Part shown: positions 57,182 through 64,000 of the stretch, in pieces | How positions within the stretch are numbered: position 1 is the first letter of the stretch | Layout: the number at the start of each line of letters is the position of its first letter | Made by a program: the position numbers and the translations under genes | Assembly (NCBI RefSeq): GCF_022346425.1 | Contig: NZ_JAKRCW010000004.1 | Span: 62,001-126,000 of the forward strand | Reading direction: 5' to 3' | DNA length: 64,000 bases | DNA from: Pseudoglutamicibacter albus | GTDB taxonomy: Bacteria; Actinomycetota; Actinomycetes; Actinomycetales; Micrococcaceae | The notes under the pieces: generated by a model | What the model saw: the letters and a program-made list of their open reading frames with translations, nothing else | Database searches by the model: none | Told to the model about the DNA's origin: nothing

Positions 57182-57204
57182 GTAGCTAGTTTCTAGCCAA
57201 GAAC

Positions 57205-57238
57205 AGGGCGGCCAGACGATTGATCGTCTGGCCGCCCT
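57205..57238. terminator. Bidirectional terminator between prpC and the MHS transporter gene
   Basis: Arms 57205-57220 and 57223-57238 are perfectly complementary over 16 bases. Converging genes end on both sides. Confidence 0.85.
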
Positions 57239-57272
57239 TAGATGTTATCCACCGTTCACCGACGGTTTGTCC

Positions 57273-58586
57273 TCAGGTTTCTTCCGAATACTTGCGGGAC
57301 GCAACCACCGAGACCAGAGTGATCAGGCACATGCCGATCAGATAAATCACGATAGGTAGCGGGGAATCGAATTTGAGCAACAGCGCTGTCGCTATCAGCG
57401 GAGCAATGCCACCGGCGAAAACGGAAGCCACTTCGTGTGCAATTGAGATCGCCGAATACCGAACCTCTGCCGGGAACAGTTCGTGGAAGAGTGAAGGCTG
57501 GGTACCAATCATTGCTCCGTGGCAAACACCCAAAGCAAGAACGAACCCCAACAACATCAGCGGCATCGAACCGGTCTCCAAGAGAGAAAAGAACGGAGCC
57601 GCAACAATCATCATGCCTATCGCACCGAAAGCGTAGACACGACGCCGGCCGAGCACGTCAGATAAATGGCCGAAGAAAACGAAAGAGAAGAAACACAGCG
57701 TCATAGTGATCGCCAGAATCAGCAAGATCAAGCTGTCATCTACCCCAACGTGCTTGCCATAAACAACGGAGAAGGTCATAAAGATATAGGAGCCGCCGTT
57801 CTCGGCGATGCGCATGCCCATCGCGGTGAGCATTTGGCCAGGGAAACGCCGGAAAGCCTCGATCATCGGGATGCGTTCGTTATCACTGCTCGCTGACTCG
57901 GCCTCATCAACAGTTTCATCCGGAAGGCCCTTACGAATATAGATGCCCACGAAAAGCAGCACGATGCTGAACAAAAACGGAAGGCGCCAGCCCCATGTTA
58001 GAAATTGTTCTTCAGGTAGCTGTTTGACTGCATAAAAGGCTAGCGCCGACGTTACGAAACCGAGGCTCACACCGCTTTGGCTGAAAGCCGCGAGCATCCC
58101 TCTACGTTTCTGGGAAGAGTTCTCACTGATCAGGAGTACTGCGCCTCCCCATTCCCCGCCAGCAGCGACCCCTTGCGCGACACGAAGCAACACCAAGATG
58201 ATGGGTGCTGCGGCACCGATGGATGCATACGTTGGCAGCAGACCCATCGCTGTTGAGGCCAGCCCCATGACCCCAAGCGTGATGATGAGCGAGGTTTTAC
58301 GCGAGACTTTATCGCCGATATGCCCAAAAATTACCCCGCCCAACGGCCGAGCAACAAACCCAACCGCTAGCCCAACGTATGCCCCAAGCGCACCTACTAG
58401 CGGGTCTGTACCTGCAGGGAACATGAGGACGTTGAACACCACAGCCGAGGCAGTCGCATAGAGGAAGAAGTCATACCACTCAAGTGAGTTACCAATCAGG
58501 GAAGCAACAACGTATTTGGTGGTACTGGCCTGGCGAGGTTCAGCTTGCGGCGGGGTGTGGGCCGCAGTCATTACTTGTTTGCTCAT
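57273..58586 (-). CDS. MFS transporter, metabolite:H+ symporter (MHS) subfamily
   Basis: The 437-aa protein has 12 predicted membrane helices and MHS hallmarks: SLIGNSLEWYDFFLYATASA in helix 1, the loop motif ARPLGGVIFGHIGDKVSRKTSL between helices 2 and 3, GEWGGAVLLISENSSQKRRG, and a second-half GHLSDVLGRRR. MHS members import organic acids and compatible solutes such as shikimate, proline/betaine, dicarboxylates or aromatic acids with protons. The substrate is unknown. The start ATG has no strong ribosome-binding site. It opens the right-hand accessory cluster and is 118 bases downstream of the flavin reductase gene on the same strand, so the two could be co-transcribed. Confidence 0.9.
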   Translation of the reverse strand: MSKQVMTAAHTPPQAEPRQASTTKYVVASLIGNSLEWYDFFLYATASAVVFNVLMFPAGTDPLVGALGAYVGLAVGFVARPLGGVIFGHIGDKVSRKTSLIITLGVMGLASTAMGLLPTYASIGAAAPIILVLLRVAQGVAAGGEWGGAVLLISENSSQKRRGMLAAFSQSGVSLGFVTSALAFYAVKQLPEEQFLTWGWRLPFLFSIVLLFVGIYIRKGLPDETVDEAESASSDNERIPMIEAFRRFPGQMLTAMGMRIAENGGSYIFMTFSVVYGKHVGVDDSLILLILAITMTLCFFSFVFFGHLSDVLGRRRVYAFGAIGMMIVAAPFFSLLETGSMPLMLLGFVLALGVCHGAMIGTQPSLFHELFPAEVRYSAISIAHEVASVFAGGIAPLIATALLLKFDSPLPIVIYLIGMCLITLVSVVASRKYSEET

Positions 58587-58704
58587 GACTAACGACTACT
58601 TTCTATGAAACGAGCTCTCTTGTCCCACGATTGTTTTCTCCTCGAACCGCTTCCGACTACCAGTGTTTGCGGATTCGGGTTAACGGATAAAGACTCCGAA
58701 CGAG

Positions 58705-59907
58705 TTATGACTGTTGTGTTTGTGAGAAGCCGATCAGGCTTTCGATGAGGTTGACTGCGCTCTTGCCTCGTTCGATCCAGTCGAGCACTCGATGCCCCAG
58801 CCGAGGTCCCGGGAATTGGGAGAGCCGGAGTGTGTATTCCACTCCTCCTTCTGGGCTTTGCACAGGAAAAACCATGGAGCCGATCCTGTATGCAGTGTGC
58901 GGGTCGATGTCGCGGAGCTCGTAATCTACGGAGGAGTTGAAGATTGTCTCCCGAACTCGGCGCTCCTCAGCTGGTGTCATACGGCCTTGCGCATACTGGC
59001 GTGTGGCTTCGTTGACGTCGTCATATGCCGCTTCATTGTCGTCAGGCAAGAAGGCGACCAGATAACCGTGCCGGCGGACAAAATCCATCCGCTGCCGGAA
59101 CACTTCCTTAGTTTCATCACTGACTCCCCGCGCTTTAGCGATCCACCGTTCCTGTTCACTCTCAGGTTGGGCATACATATAGGTATCGCCGATGGGAGGG
59201 ACGATCGGAAGACGCCGCCCAACCCCTCCTGACCGGTCAACTCCGGGGCCGGTAGCGGAGAGCACCTGGGCGAATTCATCACGACTTACAGCGCGGTAGA
59301 GGGTCACCTGGCAACCGATTCCGCTTGCTAACCCTTCGAGGATGCCTCGCGTAGATTCGACTTCCTCGAGTAGGTCCGCAAACTCTTTATCGGTACGTGC
59401 CGCCAGTGACGTGCTCAAGAAGCCACCGTAACCGCCCTGAAAAAACAACAGTGGTGAGCCCGCGTTAACCACGGCAAGGTCCAAGACCCTGCAAAGAACA
59501 ATCCAGTGATCGCCTGCTTCGACGATATTGTCAGTTTCAACATCAACCCAGGCCACGCTTCCCGCCAAAACTGGATTGCCTGCCGGCGAACGGAATGAGT
59601 CCACACCGTGATACTTGTTTTCCCACCGGCGGGCGATGGTTGTGACCAGGTCTTCCTGCTCCTCCCCCAGGATATTGATGCACATCGTTTTCAGATTGCG
59701 TAATTTCTCAAACGTCTTCGACGTCTTCATTGGCATGAATGACACAAGCGGTGGATCAAGAGATACAGAACTAAACGTCCCTACTACCAATGCGAGCTCT
59801 TCACCGTCTTCGGCGATGCCCGTCACCACCGCTACGCCGGTCGGATAATGACCCATCACTTCTCGAAACACGAGCGGGTCAATGAGAGGAGTCTCTTCCG
59901 GAGTCAC
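58705..59907 (-). CDS. Flavin reductase fused to an IclR-effector-like domain
   Basis: Residues 10-165 form a flavin_Reduct domain: REVMGHYPTGVAVVTG, GTFSSVSLDPPLVSFMP, AGDHWIVLCRVLDL and PLLFFQGGYGGF, as in NAD(P)H:FMN oxidoreductases that feed reduced flavin to two-component monooxygenases. Residues 180-400 are extra and resemble an IclR effector-binding domain: CQVTLYRAVSRDEF, VGRRLPIVPPIGDTYMYAQ, RRHGYLVAFLP and IGSMVFPVQSPEGGVEYTLRLSQFPG. There is no HTH, so the domain probably senses a ligand to control the reductase. The GTG at 59907 is chosen because AAAGGA lies 7 bases upstream; the frame runs 74 codons further without signal. No oxygenase partner is in the window. Confidence 0.8.
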   Translation of the reverse strand: MTPEETPLIDPLVFREVMGHYPTGVAVVTGIAEDGEELALVVGTFSSVSLDPPLVSFMPMKTSKTFEKLRNLKTMCINILGEEQEDLVTTIARRWENKYHGVDSFRSPAGNPVLAGSVAWVDVETDNIVEAGDHWIVLCRVLDLAVVNAGSPLLFFQGGYGGFLSTSLAARTDKEFADLLEEVESTRGILEGLASGIGCQVTLYRAVSRDEFAQVLSATGPGVDRSGGVGRRLPIVPPIGDTYMYAQPESEQERWIAKARGVSDETKEVFRQRMDFVRRHGYLVAFLPDDNEAAYDDVNEATRQYAQGRMTPAEERRVRETIFNSSVDYELRDIDPHTAYRIGSMVFPVQSPEGGVEYTLRLSQFPGPRLGHRVLDWIERGKSAVNLIESLIGFSQTQQS

Positions 59908-59953
59908 AATAAGGTCCTTTCCCACTGTCTTGACCAGAATCTTTGAATTCTGA

Positions 59954-59965
59954 GTCACTAGTGAC
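59954..59965. promoter_or_regulatory. Palindrome in the flavin reductase/amidase divergent region
   Basis: GTCACTAGTGAC is a perfect 12-bp palindrome 47 bases upstream of the flavin reductase start, in the 264-base gap to the amidase gene. It is a plausible operator; two CATATG sites lie further right (60001-60035). Confidence 0.35.
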
Positions 59966-60171
59966 ACGAGAGGTCTAGCGAGGGCAATAAGGCCTACCGT
60001 CATATGAGTGACCCAGGCCACATACCGTTCACATATGCAAGCTAGCCAACCCTTCCTTTCACCCATAGAGGGGAAACCTTTACTTTCAAATAGCGAACAA
60101 GTCGCCAAGAATTGTGACCGGGGACACATGTAAGTTATTTGAGCTATGGAGAGCTACGAGGGAACGAAACC

Positions 60172-61452
60172 GTGAAATCCACACCTGTACCTTCAATTGC
60201 TGAACGAGTCACCGCTGTCCAGGCTGATGCCGCAAAAGCTCAGCGGTTCATTGCAGACGACCTCGCTGCCGTTCAAGCACGAGAAGAAGAGCTACAAGCA
60301 TGGGTTCTCATCGACGAATCGGCCCCTGACTCGGTCAGTGCTTCACCGGATGGGCCACTAGCAGGCGTTTCCTTCGGGGTGAAAGATCTCATTGATGTTG
60401 CCGGCATGCCAACGCGCAGTGGTTCCCCTACGACGGATTCGGCTAACAAGTCTTCAACAGCGGCCTGTGTAGAGCGCTTCGAAAGTCTAGGCGCCATCGT
60501 TCTCGGAAAGACCACCACCACCGAGTTCGGTTTCTTCAAACCATCGAAAACACGCAACCCAGCTAACACGGAACATACCCCTGGGGGCTCTTCGAGCGGT
60601 TCAGCGGCAGCAGTCGCGGCAGGAACTGTCCCGCTAGCGCTTGGCACACAAACAGCTGGCTCGGTAACGCGCCCGGCGGCATACTGCGGCACAGCCGGTT
60701 TTGTGTTGGCAAGGAAAGACGTTGATCCCACTGGCGTCGACGGCATGGCAAAATCGCTCGACAGCCTCGGCCTATTAACTCAAACAACCGAAGATCTACG
60801 CATCGCCACATCTGCATTTTTAGGGCGTGACCTGTCCACAGAGATCAGCCACGCCACTGTATTGACGTGGCCTGGTTCAGATGTCGCTGACATCGCATCC
60901 CCCATGTCTGGGGCCATCGGTACCGCAACTGACCAATTGGCCGCTTTCGGTGTTGTCTCGTCGCCTTTCGACCTGCTAGATCATGTGGCCACCCTGGTTC
61001 AGGACCATCCCATCATCATGGCTTATGAGGCACACCAAAAACATGGGCACCTACTAAACGACTTCCCGGAAGAAATCAGCCCACAATTTCGCACTTTGCT
61101 CACTACCGGTCGTGGCATCAACAATCAGCAATACTGGAACGCCTTGTCCCGTACCCGCCGTACTGATGAACTATTCAAAGCTCAACTCAAACCTGGGACG
61201 GTCATCCTGGGCCCAGCTGCACAGGATTCTGCCCCTTACGGCCTCGAAAGCACCGGCGACCCAGTTCTTAGTCGGCCCTGGCAAGCACTCGGCTATCCTG
61301 CACTGACTGTTCCTGGCGCGCGCAACGAAAGCGGACTGCCCCTAGGGCTCCAACTAATCAGCCTGCCCGGTGATGAGGCTGAACTATTCGCAATCGGGCA
61401 ACTGCTCGAACAAAAACTCATAGAGTACTACGGAGGGAATGAATCGCTATGA
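60172..61452 (+). CDS. Amidase (amidase signature family)
   Basis: The 426-aa hydrolase has the amidase-signature Ser-cisSer-Lys triad: Lys71 in GVSFGVKDLIDVAG, the GGSSSGSAAAVAAG glycine/serine stretch at 138-151 and the nucleophile Ser164 in TQTAGSVTRPAAYCG. It converts an amide to acid and ammonia; the family spans glutamyl-tRNA amidotransferase subunit A, acylamidases and catabolic amidases, and the lack of gatB/gatC neighbours argues for catabolism. The start is GTG at 60172 with GAGGGAA about 8 bases upstream. Its stop overlaps the next gene by 4 bases (ATGA). Base composition looks lower in G+C than in the rest of the window. Confidence 0.88.
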   Translation: MKSTPVPSIAERVTAVQADAAKAQRFIADDLAAVQAREEELQAWVLIDESAPDSVSASPDGPLAGVSFGVKDLIDVAGMPTRSGSPTTDSANKSSTAACVERFESLGAIVLGKTTTTEFGFFKPSKTRNPANTEHTPGGSSSGSAAAVAAGTVPLALGTQTAGSVTRPAAYCGTAGFVLARKDVDPTGVDGMAKSLDSLGLLTQTTEDLRIATSAFLGRDLSTEISHATVLTWPGSDVADIASPMSGAIGTATDQLAAFGVVSSPFDLLDHVATLVQDHPIIMAYEAHQKHGHLLNDFPEEISPQFRTLLTTGRGINNQQYWNALSRTRRTDELFKAQLKPGTVILGPAAQDSAPYGLESTGDPVLSRPWQALGYPALTVPGARNESGLPLGLQLISLPGDEAELFAIGQLLEQKLIEYYGGNESL

Positions 61453-61781
61453 CGAACACTTCAACTGAACCGGTTCGCAAGTCTCCACGACCACTCAACC
61501 ATGCCCGAACCTTCCTCACCTGCTACGAGGACACGTTCAACTACGGCTGGCATCACGTAGATCTCTTTGTTCATGACGAGTTTGGGCGCGAGGTCAACTG
61601 GGTCCACTGGACAGTCCAAGCCGACGGACCTGAAGCAGCCGACGAATCAGTACGTCGAGAAGAGCCTTCGCTCCGTAGGCTGACCCCATGGCAACACCAC
61701 GTCAGCGCTTTCGGCATGAACTACTGGACAGCCGACGCAGCCTTTGACGAAGACGGAGATGCAACGTCTGATGACAACTAA
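61449..61781 (+). CDS. Hypothetical protein, 110 aa, between amidase and regulator
   Basis: I do not recognise this protein. It is soluble, acidic, rich in W, H, Y and F (YGWHHVDLFVHDEFG, VNWVHWTV, WQHHVSAFGMNYW), and has no signal peptide or membrane segment. The aromatic and histidine richness suggests a compact domain that could bind a metal or an aromatic ligand, but this is inference. Its ATG overlaps the amidase stop by 4 bases and its end overlaps the FixJ-type regulator by 11, so it is translated as part of a three-gene unit. Real coding is supported by this tight packing. Confidence 0.7.
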   Translation: MTNTSTEPVRKSPRPLNHARTFLTCYEDTFNYGWHHVDLFVHDEFGREVNWVHWTVQADGPEAADESVRREEPSLRRLTPWQHHVSAFGMNYWTADAAFDEDGDATSDDN

Positions 61782-62469
61782 TCCTCTCGCTGACAAATTG
61801 CTCGAACGTTCGGTTTCAGTCGGGTCAGCAGTTACAGAGGAGGACGTCTCGGTCTTTGTTGTTGATGATGACCCAGCTGTGCGTGAGTCTGCGCAGTGGC
61901 TGCTAGGCAGCATCGGTTTATCTCCGATCTTGTGCGGAAGCGCTCAGGAGTTGCTAAATGCATACGACGGTAGCGCCCCAGCGTGCATCATCTTGGATGT
62001 TCGAATGCCGCATATGAGTGGCCCGAAGCTACAGCAAGAACTCAACCGAATCGCTCCTCACGCCGTCATTATTTTTGTTTCTGCTCACGGAGATATCCCT
62101 TTGTCTGTATCCGTGCTACGAGCGGGAGCTACTGACTTCCTTGAAAAGCCGTACAACCCGCAAGAGTTGTTGGAACGTGTGCAATCTTCGATCCCTCTGG
62201 CTTGTGAACGATTCAATGGTCACGCGTTACGAAAGGATGTCACTGATCGCATCGGCGTGTTGACCCATCGTGAACGGGAGATTTTGTCTCTAGTGATCGA
62301 AGGAATCCCGAGCAAAAATATCGCTCGCAAGCTCGGCCTCAGTACCAAGACTGTCGATGTGCACCGAGCTCGCATCACACATAAAACGGGGTCTGCGACC
62401 ATTCAGACATTGATTCGGGACATTCTGCGCGCGAATCTCGAGTCTGCGGTTTATCCACTAGCAAGCTAG
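61771..62469 (+). CDS. FixJ/LuxR-type response regulator without adjacent kinase
   Basis: The 232-aa protein has a receiver domain with the acidic pair in VVDDDPAVR, phospho-acceptor Asp76 in IILDVRMPHMSG, Ser in FVSAHGDIPLS and Lys in EKPYNPQEL, all intact, so it should be phosphorylated. The LuxR-type HTH is LTHREREILSLVIEGIPSKNIARKLGLSTKTVDVHR, the FixJ/TodT/StyR pattern common in aromatic catabolism. The ATG at 61771 has GGAG 12 bases upstream; ATG 61759 and 61744 are in frame. No sensor kinase is encoded nearby, so phosphorylation must come from elsewhere or from a gene beyond 64 kb. Confidence 0.88.
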   Translation: MTTNPLADKLLERSVSVGSAVTEEDVSVFVVDDDPAVRESAQWLLGSIGLSPILCGSAQELLNAYDGSAPACIILDVRMPHMSGPKLQQELNRIAPHAVIIFVSAHGDIPLSVSVLRAGATDFLEKPYNPQELLERVQSSIPLACERFNGHALRKDVTDRIGVLTHREREILSLVIEGIPSKNIARKLGLSTKTVDVHRARITHKTGSATIQTLIRDILRANLESAVYPLAS

Positions 62470-62493
62470 AACAGCCCCTGTTAGAAATACGAA

Positions 62494-62541
62494 TTGTGGG
62501 ACCAACAATCTGAACTGCAGTTTCAGCTGTTGGTCCCACAA
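62494..62541. terminator. Bidirectional terminator between the FixJ-type gene and the ferredoxin reductase gene
   Basis: Outer 14-base arms (62494-62507, 62528-62541) pair perfectly, and the interior has CTGAA/TTCAG around CTGCAG. Converging genes end on both sides. Confidence 0.8.
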
Positions 62542-62571
62542 ATTTTAGTTTGTGTCTCTGGGCCTCAGTGA

Positions 62572-63522
62572 CTAATCCCAATCCAGCTCGAGCTTGGATG
62601 ACTTACTACGCGAAACGCAGATCGCGATGAGCTCCCCGCTTTCTTTTTCACTTTTCGTCAGGACATTGTCCCGGTGCTCTGGCTCACCGCAGAGAACTTG
62701 CATGATGCATGTTCCGCAGATGCCTTCTTCACAGGACGTTTCAACATCGATTCCGTTTTCTTCAAGCACAGATACGATGCTGCGATCGGCCGGGATCTCG
62801 TATTCTTCACCTTCAAGCTCAACCACGAAGGCCGAATTCTCGGACGCAGCTGGCTGTTCTTGAGCTTTGAAGTTCTCCAGATGCACTGAGTTCTCGCCTA
62901 CGAGTGGTTCCGCAATGGCGACGACTTTGTCCATGAACCCTTCCGGGCCACAAACATAGACGTGAGTGCCTTCAGGGGCCTTCTCGATAGCTTCCTCAAG
63001 CACCCCATCCTGATCATGACGAGCCAGACCGAGATGCGCGCTGAGTTTCTCGGGGCAACGGTCAGTCAATAAAGGCAAGAAACTCGCTTCTTCCTCACTA
63101 CGGGCAAAGTAGTGAAGATGAAACGGGATGTCGTGAACATCCATATAGCGAGCCATGCTCAACATCGGGGTAATGCCGATTCCCGCAGCTACCAAGACAT
63201 GGAAATCTGCCTCTTCGGCGATATTGAGAAGATTGCGAGGTTCGCTAATTCGCAAGGTATCGCCGACCTTGAGGCCATGCAATGCCTCCGAACCCCCACG
63301 AGACTCTTCTTCCCGTTTGACGGCAATTGCGAAACTATCACCGGCTTCTGGAGTGCTAAAGAGCGAGTACTGACGTGTGATGGCGGTGGGGCCTTCAACA
63401 TCAATATGTGCTCCTGGAACATACGGACCTAGCGGCGTTCCGTCTTCCCGCTCGAGCCAAAACGACTTGACGTTAGGGGCTTCGTCCACGATTTTTGTAA
63501 CTTTAACGTCGATTAACGCCAC
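62572..63522 (-). CDS. Oxygenase reductase: FMN/NAD oxidoreductase with C-terminal [2Fe-2S] ferredoxin (PDR/VanB type)
   Basis: The 316-aa protein has the phthalate dioxygenase reductase order: flavin-binding barrel (GAHIDVEG, RQYSLFSTPEAG), NAD domain (VLVAAGIGITPMLSMARY and YVCGPEGFMD), and a plant-type ferredoxin with SCEEGICGTC, plus the fourth cysteine in LIAICVSRS. Class IA reductases pass electrons from NADH to a Rieske-type oxygenase such as vanillate demethylase. No oxygenase gene is in the window. GTG 63522 with AGGAGT about 7 bases upstream is the start. It lies 49 bases downstream of the SDR gene on the same strand. Confidence 0.9.
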   Translation of the reverse strand: MALIDVKVTKIVDEAPNVKSFWLEREDGTPLGPYVPGAHIDVEGPTAITRQYSLFSTPEAGDSFAIAVKREEESRGGSEALHGLKVGDTLRISEPRNLLNIAEEADFHVLVAAGIGITPMLSMARYMDVHDIPFHLHYFARSEEEASFLPLLTDRCPEKLSAHLGLARHDQDGVLEEAIEKAPEGTHVYVCGPEGFMDKVVAIAEPLVGENSVHLENFKAQEQPAASENSAFVVELEGEEYEIPADRSIVSVLEENGIDVETSCEEGICGTCIMQVLCGEPEHRDNVLTKSEKESGELIAICVSRSKSSKLELDWD

Positions 63523-63571
63523 TTGTTACTCCTACTATCCTCACACTACGACTGACTGAGACGCTTGGGGA

Positions 63572-64000
63572 TCATCTGACGTAAAGACCACCGTTGATAT
63601 CCCACGAGGCACCCGTAACGAAGTAGGCCTCCTCGGAAGCCAATAACGCAATGGTTTGACCGATGAAGTCAGGGCTCCCCAGCTTGCCAACCGGGATCGA
63701 TGCGATGACTCCCTCCAGTTTGTCTTCTGGGACGGTTTCGTACACGATCGGAAGGTCATGGGGGCCTGGAACGATCTGGTTGACGGTCACCCCCTGCGCC
63801 GCGTATTGCTTTGCAAAGATCTTGGTAATCGTCCCAATCGCTCCCTTCGAGGCTGCGTAGTGCACACCGGTTGCGGTACCACCATTCAGCCCAGCGAGTG
63901 ACCCCATGTTGACGATCCTGCCGTAGCCAGCTTCAGCCATAGCTTGACCTATCACCTGACAGCCGAAGAAGACTGAATCCGTATTGATCCGGACTACACG
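63572..64000 (-). CDS. SDR family oxidoreductase, C-terminal part, cut by window end
   Basis: The 143 visible codons carry the active-site half of a classical short-chain dehydrogenase: a conserved asparagine segment (RINTDSVFFGCQ), the catalytic serine in IVNMGSLAG, YAASKGA with the catalytic Tyr and Lys, and the C-terminal VTGASWDINGGLYVR. It would oxidise or reduce an alcohol/keto group with NAD(P). The N-terminal cofactor domain lies beyond 64,000. Immediately upstream of the ferredoxin-type reductase gene, it is probably in the same catabolic transcript. Confidence 0.88.
   Translation of the reverse strand, partial: RVVRINTDSVFFGCQVIGQAMAEAGYGRIVNMGSLAGLNGGTATGVHYAASKGAIGTITKIFAKQYAAQGVTVNQIVPGPHDLPIVYETVPEDKLEGVIASIPVGKLGSPDFIGQTIALLASEEAYFVTGASWDINGGLYVR

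Follow-up and report, generated by a model that had tools for sequence, protein, structure and literature searches.

What is the function of the small protein whose gene lies between an amidase gene and a response regulator gene near the end of a 64,000-nucleotide stretch (the window) of the Pseudoglutamicibacter albus contig NZ_JAKRCW010000004.1? The gene (61449..61781, + strand), in a genome of 2.22 Mb, encodes an unnamed 110 amino acid product, here termed P110, for which the initial annotation envisaged either a role alongside the amidase or one as ligand-responsive partner of a regulator without a kinase. Judged from their sequences, the three genes are part of an accessory island with a complete set of iac-type genes for the catabolism of indole-3-acetic acid (IAA). 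The gene cluster belongs to a known type of system, and its unexplained part is P110, a conserved companion of actinobacterial iac clusters whose unnamed family is tied to the actinobacterial form of the pathway. The explanation that we favor, with a probability of roughly 0.6, is that P110 is a dedicated catabolic protein that acts with the Rieske oxygenase system IacCDF and a malonamidase-type amidase in the conversion of 3-hydroxy-2-oxindole-3-acetate (DOAA) to catechol, and has no partner in the regulator.

Co-occurrence of P110 with the oxygenase and the amidase

P110 and the alpha subunit of the IacC-type Rieske oxygenase are encoded in exactly the same genomes. Within the family to which the window belongs, P110 is found in six of 197 genomes (E <= 0.001) and the oxygenase in the identical six (E <= 1e-90; weakest match 1.6e-203), while in a second actinobacterial family (centre G233) both proteins are found in an identical set of 37 among 301 genomes (IacC: E <= 1e-120; weakest match 6.5e-200). 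Across the two families, 43/498 genomes hold both proteins and none holds one alone. The amidase (E <= 1e-60), IacB (E <= 0.001) and the sensor kinase (E <= 1e-40) are each detected in 42 of the 43 P110 genomes; the latter two fall below threshold in the same genome (G007; 99% complete), which retains P110, the oxygenase and the amidase. Three genomes (G788, G855 and G859) each encode two copies of P110, the oxygenase and the amidase but only one IacB, with one, one and two kinases, respectively. Furthermore, the iac cluster on plasmid pMTS1 of Cupriavidus sp. P-10 includes a regulator and a kinase, with no P110 detected by tblastn or by a hidden Markov model (HMM). As its copy numbers match those of the oxygenase and amidase, as it is kept in G007, and as the pMTS1 regulator-kinase pair occurs without it, the presence of P110 tracks that of the oxygenase and the amidase, not that of the regulator. 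A phylum-wide sample of 396 genomes, searched with the oxygenase (E <= 1e-130) and not with P110, returned the window's own genome as its sole match and is too sparse to be informative.

Genomic context of P110

The 4-base overlap between the amidase gene (60172..61452, + strand) and the P110 gene was verified. An overlap of 11 bases had likewise been reported between the P110 and regulator (61771..62469, + strand) genes; this figure is correct for a start at ATG 61771 but becomes 38 bases from an earlier in-frame TTG (61744), and as such hinges on the start codon selected. Gene order is frequently kept among P110 loci, unlike these overlaps, with gaps of 38 and 65 bases separating the amidase and P110 genes in two Rhodococcus plasmids.

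Gene content was compared across 52 loci, comprising 49 from a genome collection, retrieved with a single query sequence that reaches close relatives only and all bearing actinobacterial names, and three from plasmids of Rhodococcus (two) and Streptomyces (one). Homologs mainly in unrelated contexts had been named as evidence against a specific partnership; instead, the alpha gene of the iac oxygenase is present in 45 of the 52 fetched stretches, with the amidase gene in 47 and the regulator gene in 49. Among the seven stretches without the oxygenase, three (L014, L019 and L059) derive from a genome or plasmid that carries it elsewhere, and it was not found in the genomes or record of L054, L057, L064 and L065. 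The last two are weak matches to P110 (43% identity over 38 residues; E 4e-4 and 6e-4) accompanied by none of the cluster genes, and were excluded from the alignments, the HMM and the neighbour tally.

This tally took in 63 loci, relatives included (L009 and L017 represent the same contig), and counted genes on the same strand whose aligned parts are separated by fewer than 400 bases; short-chain dehydrogenase (SDR) and major facilitator superfamily (MFS) matches below 33% identity were dropped from the neighbourhood counts. The amidase gene adjoins the P110 gene in 45/63 loci (36 upstream, nine downstream) and the regulator gene follows it in 45/63, while SnoaL and flavin reductase genes are found upstream in 11/63 and 4/63 loci, respectively. 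Several clusters are reduced: L013, L143 and L144 combine P110, oxygenase and amidase genes without IacB, IacE, regulator or kinase genes in the fetched stretch, and L062 and L139 show the order SnoaL-P110-IacC-IacD-IacF-amidase without IacA, IacB and IacE in the DNA fetched, the L139 stretch ending with its contig. A fusion of P110 with the amidase was considered and rejected, as among neighbours within 600 bases in the 63 loci the two share a frame only in L031, L032 and L047, with a stop between them.

Conservation and predicted structure of P110

P110 shares 95% amino acid identity with its copy in Pseudoglutamicibacter cumminsii (Micrococcaceae), with a dN/dS ratio of ~0.02 (dS 1.36, near saturation). 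Its retention in tens of genomes and the low dN/dS ratio indicate that the gene is genuine. When the two Pseudoglutamicibacter islands are compared, IacC is 97%, the regulator 83% and the amidase 72% identical. Over the 39 of 46 loci that contain all ten cluster genes, the mean identity, calculated from the best aligned piece only, is 80.0% for IacC, 71.8% for P110 (second of the ten cluster proteins), 56.9% for the regulator and 46.6% for the amidase.

The richness of the protein in tryptophan, histidine and tyrosine remarked upon in the initial annotation is borne out by its composition (5 W, 7 H and 3 Y per 110 residues). An alignment (A1) of 47 P110 sequences, from which L009, L013, L019, L026, L027, L033, L043, L054 and L062 were excluded, contains 32 invariant columns, including Cys25, Asp28, Trp34, His36, Asp38, Glu48, Trp51, His53, Trp54, Arg77, Trp81 and Trp93. 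Among the sequences left out, L062 breaks two of these columns (D59E and S86R), L054 is cut short and L013 has an in-frame stop; these three, together with L064 and L065, were also excluded from the P110 HMM. The pattern of conservation looks like that of a catalytic or substrate-binding protein.

No Pfam or NCBIfam family matches P110 above its cut-off. The PixA inclusion-body protein family (PF12306) reaches 14.8 bits against a gathering cut-off of 21 and matches six of 44 members (best E-value: 0.0069), which was regarded as noise, as were matches to PHROGs (E 0.065 or worse), NosD (E 0.052) and PDB sequences (E 0.58 or worse). An AlphaFold2 model built from 44 sequences has a mean pLDDT of 83 (90-95 across residues 21-100 when averaged in blocks of ten) and predicts a beta-beta-beta-alpha-beta-beta-beta arrangement (strands 20-26, 36-42 and 48-55, helix 60-71, strands 75-77, 82-85 and 91-99). 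A Foldseek search of the PDB with this model gave no convincing match (best E-value: 0.15), and the best hit in a viral fold library was an uncharacterised phage protein (E-value: 2.1e-3; TM 0.38). Comparison with VIA-align, which cannot exclude relatives, placed KCTD H1 domains and herpes gB on top with Z at most 4.7. The missing match for the predicted fold gives no evidence of a new fold. In openly licensed literature covering iac genes, the two-component systems that regulate them and auxin-degrading actinobacteria, no title or abstract start pointed to a P110-like protein, an unnamed protein being hardly findable by words.

Subtype of the amidase

The window amidase is an amidase-signature hydrolase (VKD 70, GSSSG 139, GSVTR 163) whose closest solved relative is malonamidase E2 (PDB 1ock and related; E-value: 3.8e-63), with which it shares the GSVxRPAxYCG motif, including an arginine three residues after the serine (Ser+3). 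Unlike malonamidase E2, its gene overlaps that of P110; its substrate is putative. The arginine is at Ser+3 in all 59 readable amidases of the 63 P110 loci, and P110 is therefore seen with one amidase subtype only. The four proteobacterial IacH proteins all carry it at Ser+2, that of Klebsiella being closest to GatA, and the island amidase shares 28-30% identity with them. The amidase of this pathway thus exists as two subtypes, and the island enzyme would fill the IacH role with a different one. As a side observation, the divergence of the amidase between the two Pseudoglutamicibacter islands, relative to P110 and the oxygenase alpha subunit, perhaps reflects the replacement of one copy by recombination.

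The regulator and its probable kinase partner

The regulator combines a receiver domain (Response_reg; E-value: 3.3e-25) with a LuxR-type helix-turn-helix domain (GerE; E-value: 5.5e-14), as expected of a FixJ/NarL-type response regulator, and the receiver does contain all the residues for phosphorylation noted at the outset, namely the acidic pair (VDDD), the acceptor aspartate (DVRMP), the serine (VSAHG) and the lysine (EKPY). The description of this regulator as kinase-less does not hold. There is indeed no histidine kinase gene inside the window, but when the contig is read past the window end (stretch L002), a PAS-HisKA-HATPase kinase gene is found 3,861 bases beyond it in the same island (L002:11861-13375, equivalent to window positions 67861-69375; + strand), which is the very finding that the initial annotation had named as refuting its view, and the regulator is no orphan, with a kinase within its gene neighbourhood. 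In seven Streptomyces loci (L016, L051, L053, L055, L056, L057 and L059) a single strand carries the P110, regulator and kinase genes in succession, and the regulator gene adjoins the kinase gene in Cupriavidus sp. P-10 pMTS1. As the genes adjoin in these clusters, the regulator and the PAS kinase of the island are likely partners in a two-component pair. The regulator is an ordinary two-component one, and would be the output half of a switch that most likely activates the island in response to the substrate or an intermediate.

Proposed role of P110

The DOAA to catechol step was stated to be an unfilled gap in bacterial auxin breakdown in PMC7225977 (2020), where IacB and IacI left DOAA unconverted in Escherichia coli, and according to part of PMC9613470 it involves iacCDF and possibly iacI. 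The presence of P110 in 43/43 oxygenase-positive genomes of the two sampled actinobacterial families directs attention to this gap, as does its association with the oxygenase and amidase, which is closer than that with IacB or the kinase. P110 is also a candidate marker for actinobacterial iac loci. We infer that P110 most likely acts in this step; a role in catalysis or in the handling of an intermediate would agree with its occurrence together with the oxygenase and amidase.

In the scheme that we propose, which was balanced by hand, DOAA (C10H9NO4) would be dioxygenated at ring carbons C3a and C7a at the expense of O2 and NADH, and the resulting unstable diol (C10H11NO6) would fall apart into catechol (C6H6O2) and oxaloacetate 1-amide (C4H5NO4), from which the amidase would then free oxaloacetate and ammonia. 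Malonamidase E2 cleaves a small carboxylated amide, and as oxaloacetate 1-amide is such a compound, a malonamidase-like enzyme fits this step. Alternatively, the amidase might open the lactam first, with unchanged end products. The part of P110 would be to handle this intermediate, or channel it, where oxygenase and amidase meet, or else to catalyze the fragmentation. The boldest version of the latter, which we regard as rather unlikely, is that P110 represents a new family of enzymes, perhaps a metal-dependent one that employs the invariant His36, Asp38, Glu48 and His53, and catalyzes the fragmentation of the DOAA-derived intermediate to catechol alongside an amidase hydrolyzing oxaloacetate 1-amide. 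If so, actinobacteria would complete auxin breakdown by other catalysts than proteobacteria.

Alternative explanations

The co-occurrence data could also be explained by P110 supporting the Rieske oxygenase alone, in its assembly or in electron-transfer coupling, the proximity to the amidase gene reflecting operon layout only. Matching genomes (43/43) and copy numbers, a degree of conservation nearest to that of IacC, and the position of P110 directly before IacC in 2/63 loci all accord with such a role, yet the match with the amidase is nearly equal (42/43), the proteobacterial clusters encode IacC proteins with 54-65% identity yet yielded no P110, and two draft assemblies (L054 and L057) hold P110 without a detected oxygenase; we consider this possible but doubtful. 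A little less probable still is a function of P110 as an obligate small subunit of the actinobacterial amidase or as a partner in its maturation, which would make it a non-homologous analogue of AtzG or GatC, which serve AtzE and GatA, respectively. This would account for the overlap of the two genes here, their same-strand adjacency in 45/63 loci, the amidase in 42/43 P110 genomes and the restriction of P110 to the Ser+3 arginine subtype, away from the Ser+2 subtype of the four proteobacterial clusters. GatC and AtzG are, however, helical, and P110 has no match to their families above the cut-off and a predicted mixed beta/alpha fold, although fold comparison is unable to exclude relatives. 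Furthermore, the two genes lie ~9 kb apart in several Streptomyces loci, P110 is conserved far above the amidase, the second amidase of G150 comes without a second P110, and malonamidase E2 is not known to need a partner. Least probable by a wide margin is a partnership of P110, as a ligand-binding protein, with the response regulator or kinase, for which the regulator gene immediately downstream on the same strand in 45/63 loci, with the short overlap observed here, might speak. P110 is much better conserved than either protein, and the alternative was rejected since the two dissociate from it in both directions: pMTS1 has both without P110, G007 has P110 without the kinase (E <= 1e-40), and L013, L139, L143 and L144 have P110 without regulator or kinase genes in the fetched stretch. 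Of the two partnerships initially suggested, that with the amidase gains support from genome content and gene adjacency, and that with the regulator is unsupported in view of pMTS1 and G007.

Several observations also weigh against the combined role with oxygenase and amidase that we prefer. P110 was not found in any of the four proteobacterial iac clusters, and therefore the pathway can run without it. Co-occurrence with the amidase is imperfect, because G150 has two amidase matches with one P110 and one oxygenase, while G808 (75% complete) has no amidase at the threshold, and two good P110 matches come without a detected oxygenase, L054 on a metagenome contig of 3.7 kb and L057 on a draft contig of 10.5 kb. 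The gene adjoining P110 varies, so that no single partner is proved, and a tight P110-amidase complex is made less plausible by the amidase sequence, which differs more between the two Pseudoglutamicibacter islands than that of any other protein of the set. The reduced clusters without IacB and IacE, or without IacA, IacB and IacE, may serve another indole or oxindole substrate. Finally, the role of the island in the breakdown of IAA by this organism is read from its genes.

The accessory island

The island spans 14.5 kb, from window position 57185 to L002:15686 (L002:1185-15686), with its in-window part at 57185..64000. G+C content is ~51-55% from the first MFS gene (57273) to the second (L002:15426), compared to ~60% outside. 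The region L002:1185-15686 is missing from a genome of the same species (G065) and one of the same genus (G011), in which the flanks abut, the matched pieces being 12 and 28 bases apart, and is present in G041 with 82% DNA identity. By eye, the flanking genes resemble those for 2-methylcitrate synthase on one side and sucCD on the other.

At its 5' end, the island encodes an MFS symporter (57273..58586, - strand) with 45-49% identity to two transporters of a Caballeronia iac region, and an IacG-type flavin reductase (58705..60129, - strand; start codon uncertain). The latter (474 residues) continues for ~240 residues beyond its Flavin_Reduct domain (92-235) in a C-terminal part without family match; by eye this part is effector-binding domain-like, and the hydroxylase-reductase model NF045919 is among the matches of the protein. 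Downstream of the regulator gene, the minus strand encodes an IacF-type ferredoxin reductase (FAD/NAD/2Fe-2S; 62572..63522) and an IacE-type SDR (63572..64000, truncated at the window end, the full-length gene being L002:7572-8333). Past the window end, these are followed on the same strand by IacD (L002:8342-8833), IacC (L002:8826-10103), the 122 amino acid IacB (L002:10133-10501) and IacA (L002:10510-11850 as read here; to 11916 in the open reading frame (ORF) list). Beyond the kinase gene lie genes for a SnoaL/IacI-like protein (L002:13366-13947 as read here, from 13258 in the ORF list; + strand) and a second MFS protein (L002:14038-15426 as read here, to 15537 in the ORF list; - strand).

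According to part of PMC9613470, iacA, iacB and iacI are markers that distinguish iac from iad loci. All three have counterparts in the island, with 39-51% (the ACAD-type oxygenase IacA), 51-58% (IacB) and 30-36% (SnoaL) identity by tblastn to four plasmid-borne proteobacterial clusters, in which each iac-type gene of the island was matched. The island IacB shares 57% identity with a Klebsiella plasmid protein annotated as IacB, and iacC, iacD (Rieske oxygenase), iacE, iacF and iacG are likewise represented. General family scans, made without a search using iad proteins, showed no island gene resembling iadA or iadB. A catechol 1,2-dioxygenase gene is located elsewhere in the genome (TIGR02438; 454.8 bits, cut-off 404.4). 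Among the proteobacterial clusters, that of Klebsiella pneumoniae resides on plasmid pRX.G5M15_1 (L069), which is typed as conjugative, and that of Cupriavidus sp. P-10 pMTS1 (L066), in a stretch without annotation in the record used, includes the same regulator-kinase pair as the actinobacteria.

Comparison with known iac systems

Actinobacteria are among the phyla reported to carry auxin-degradation loci in part of PMC9613470, and passages of PMC7002392 describe three Rhodococcus chromosomes without iac homologs, one of these strains nevertheless growing on IAA. A LuxR regulator with IacS is reported in Paraburkholderia phytofirmans and in some Pseudomonas iac operons (PMC11630574, in part), and the island likewise has a LuxR/FixJ-type regulator and a sensor kinase within its iac cluster, sharing 47% and 36% identity, respectively, with the pMTS1 pair. 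Unlike in the LuxR-type/IacS pair, the island regulator and kinase genes are split by iacA-F, the comparison with P. phytofirmans being by description only. IacB, whose role is described as unclear in part of PMC7225977, resembles P110 in being small, conserved and linked to iac genes, but is encoded by a distinct gene in the island and, unlike P110, is found in the four proteobacterial clusters. With the iac clusters described for Pseudomonas putida 1290, Caballeronia glathei and Paraburkholderia, as far as PMC9613470, PMC7225977 and PMC11676955 describe them, the island shares homologs of iacA, B, C, D, E, F, G and I along with an amidase and MFS transporters. The sequence comparison itself was made with plasmid-borne proteobacterial clusters rather than those of the type strains, and relative to these the island stands apart in its malonamidase E2-like amidase, with arginine at Ser+3 rather than Ser+2, and in the extra protein P110.

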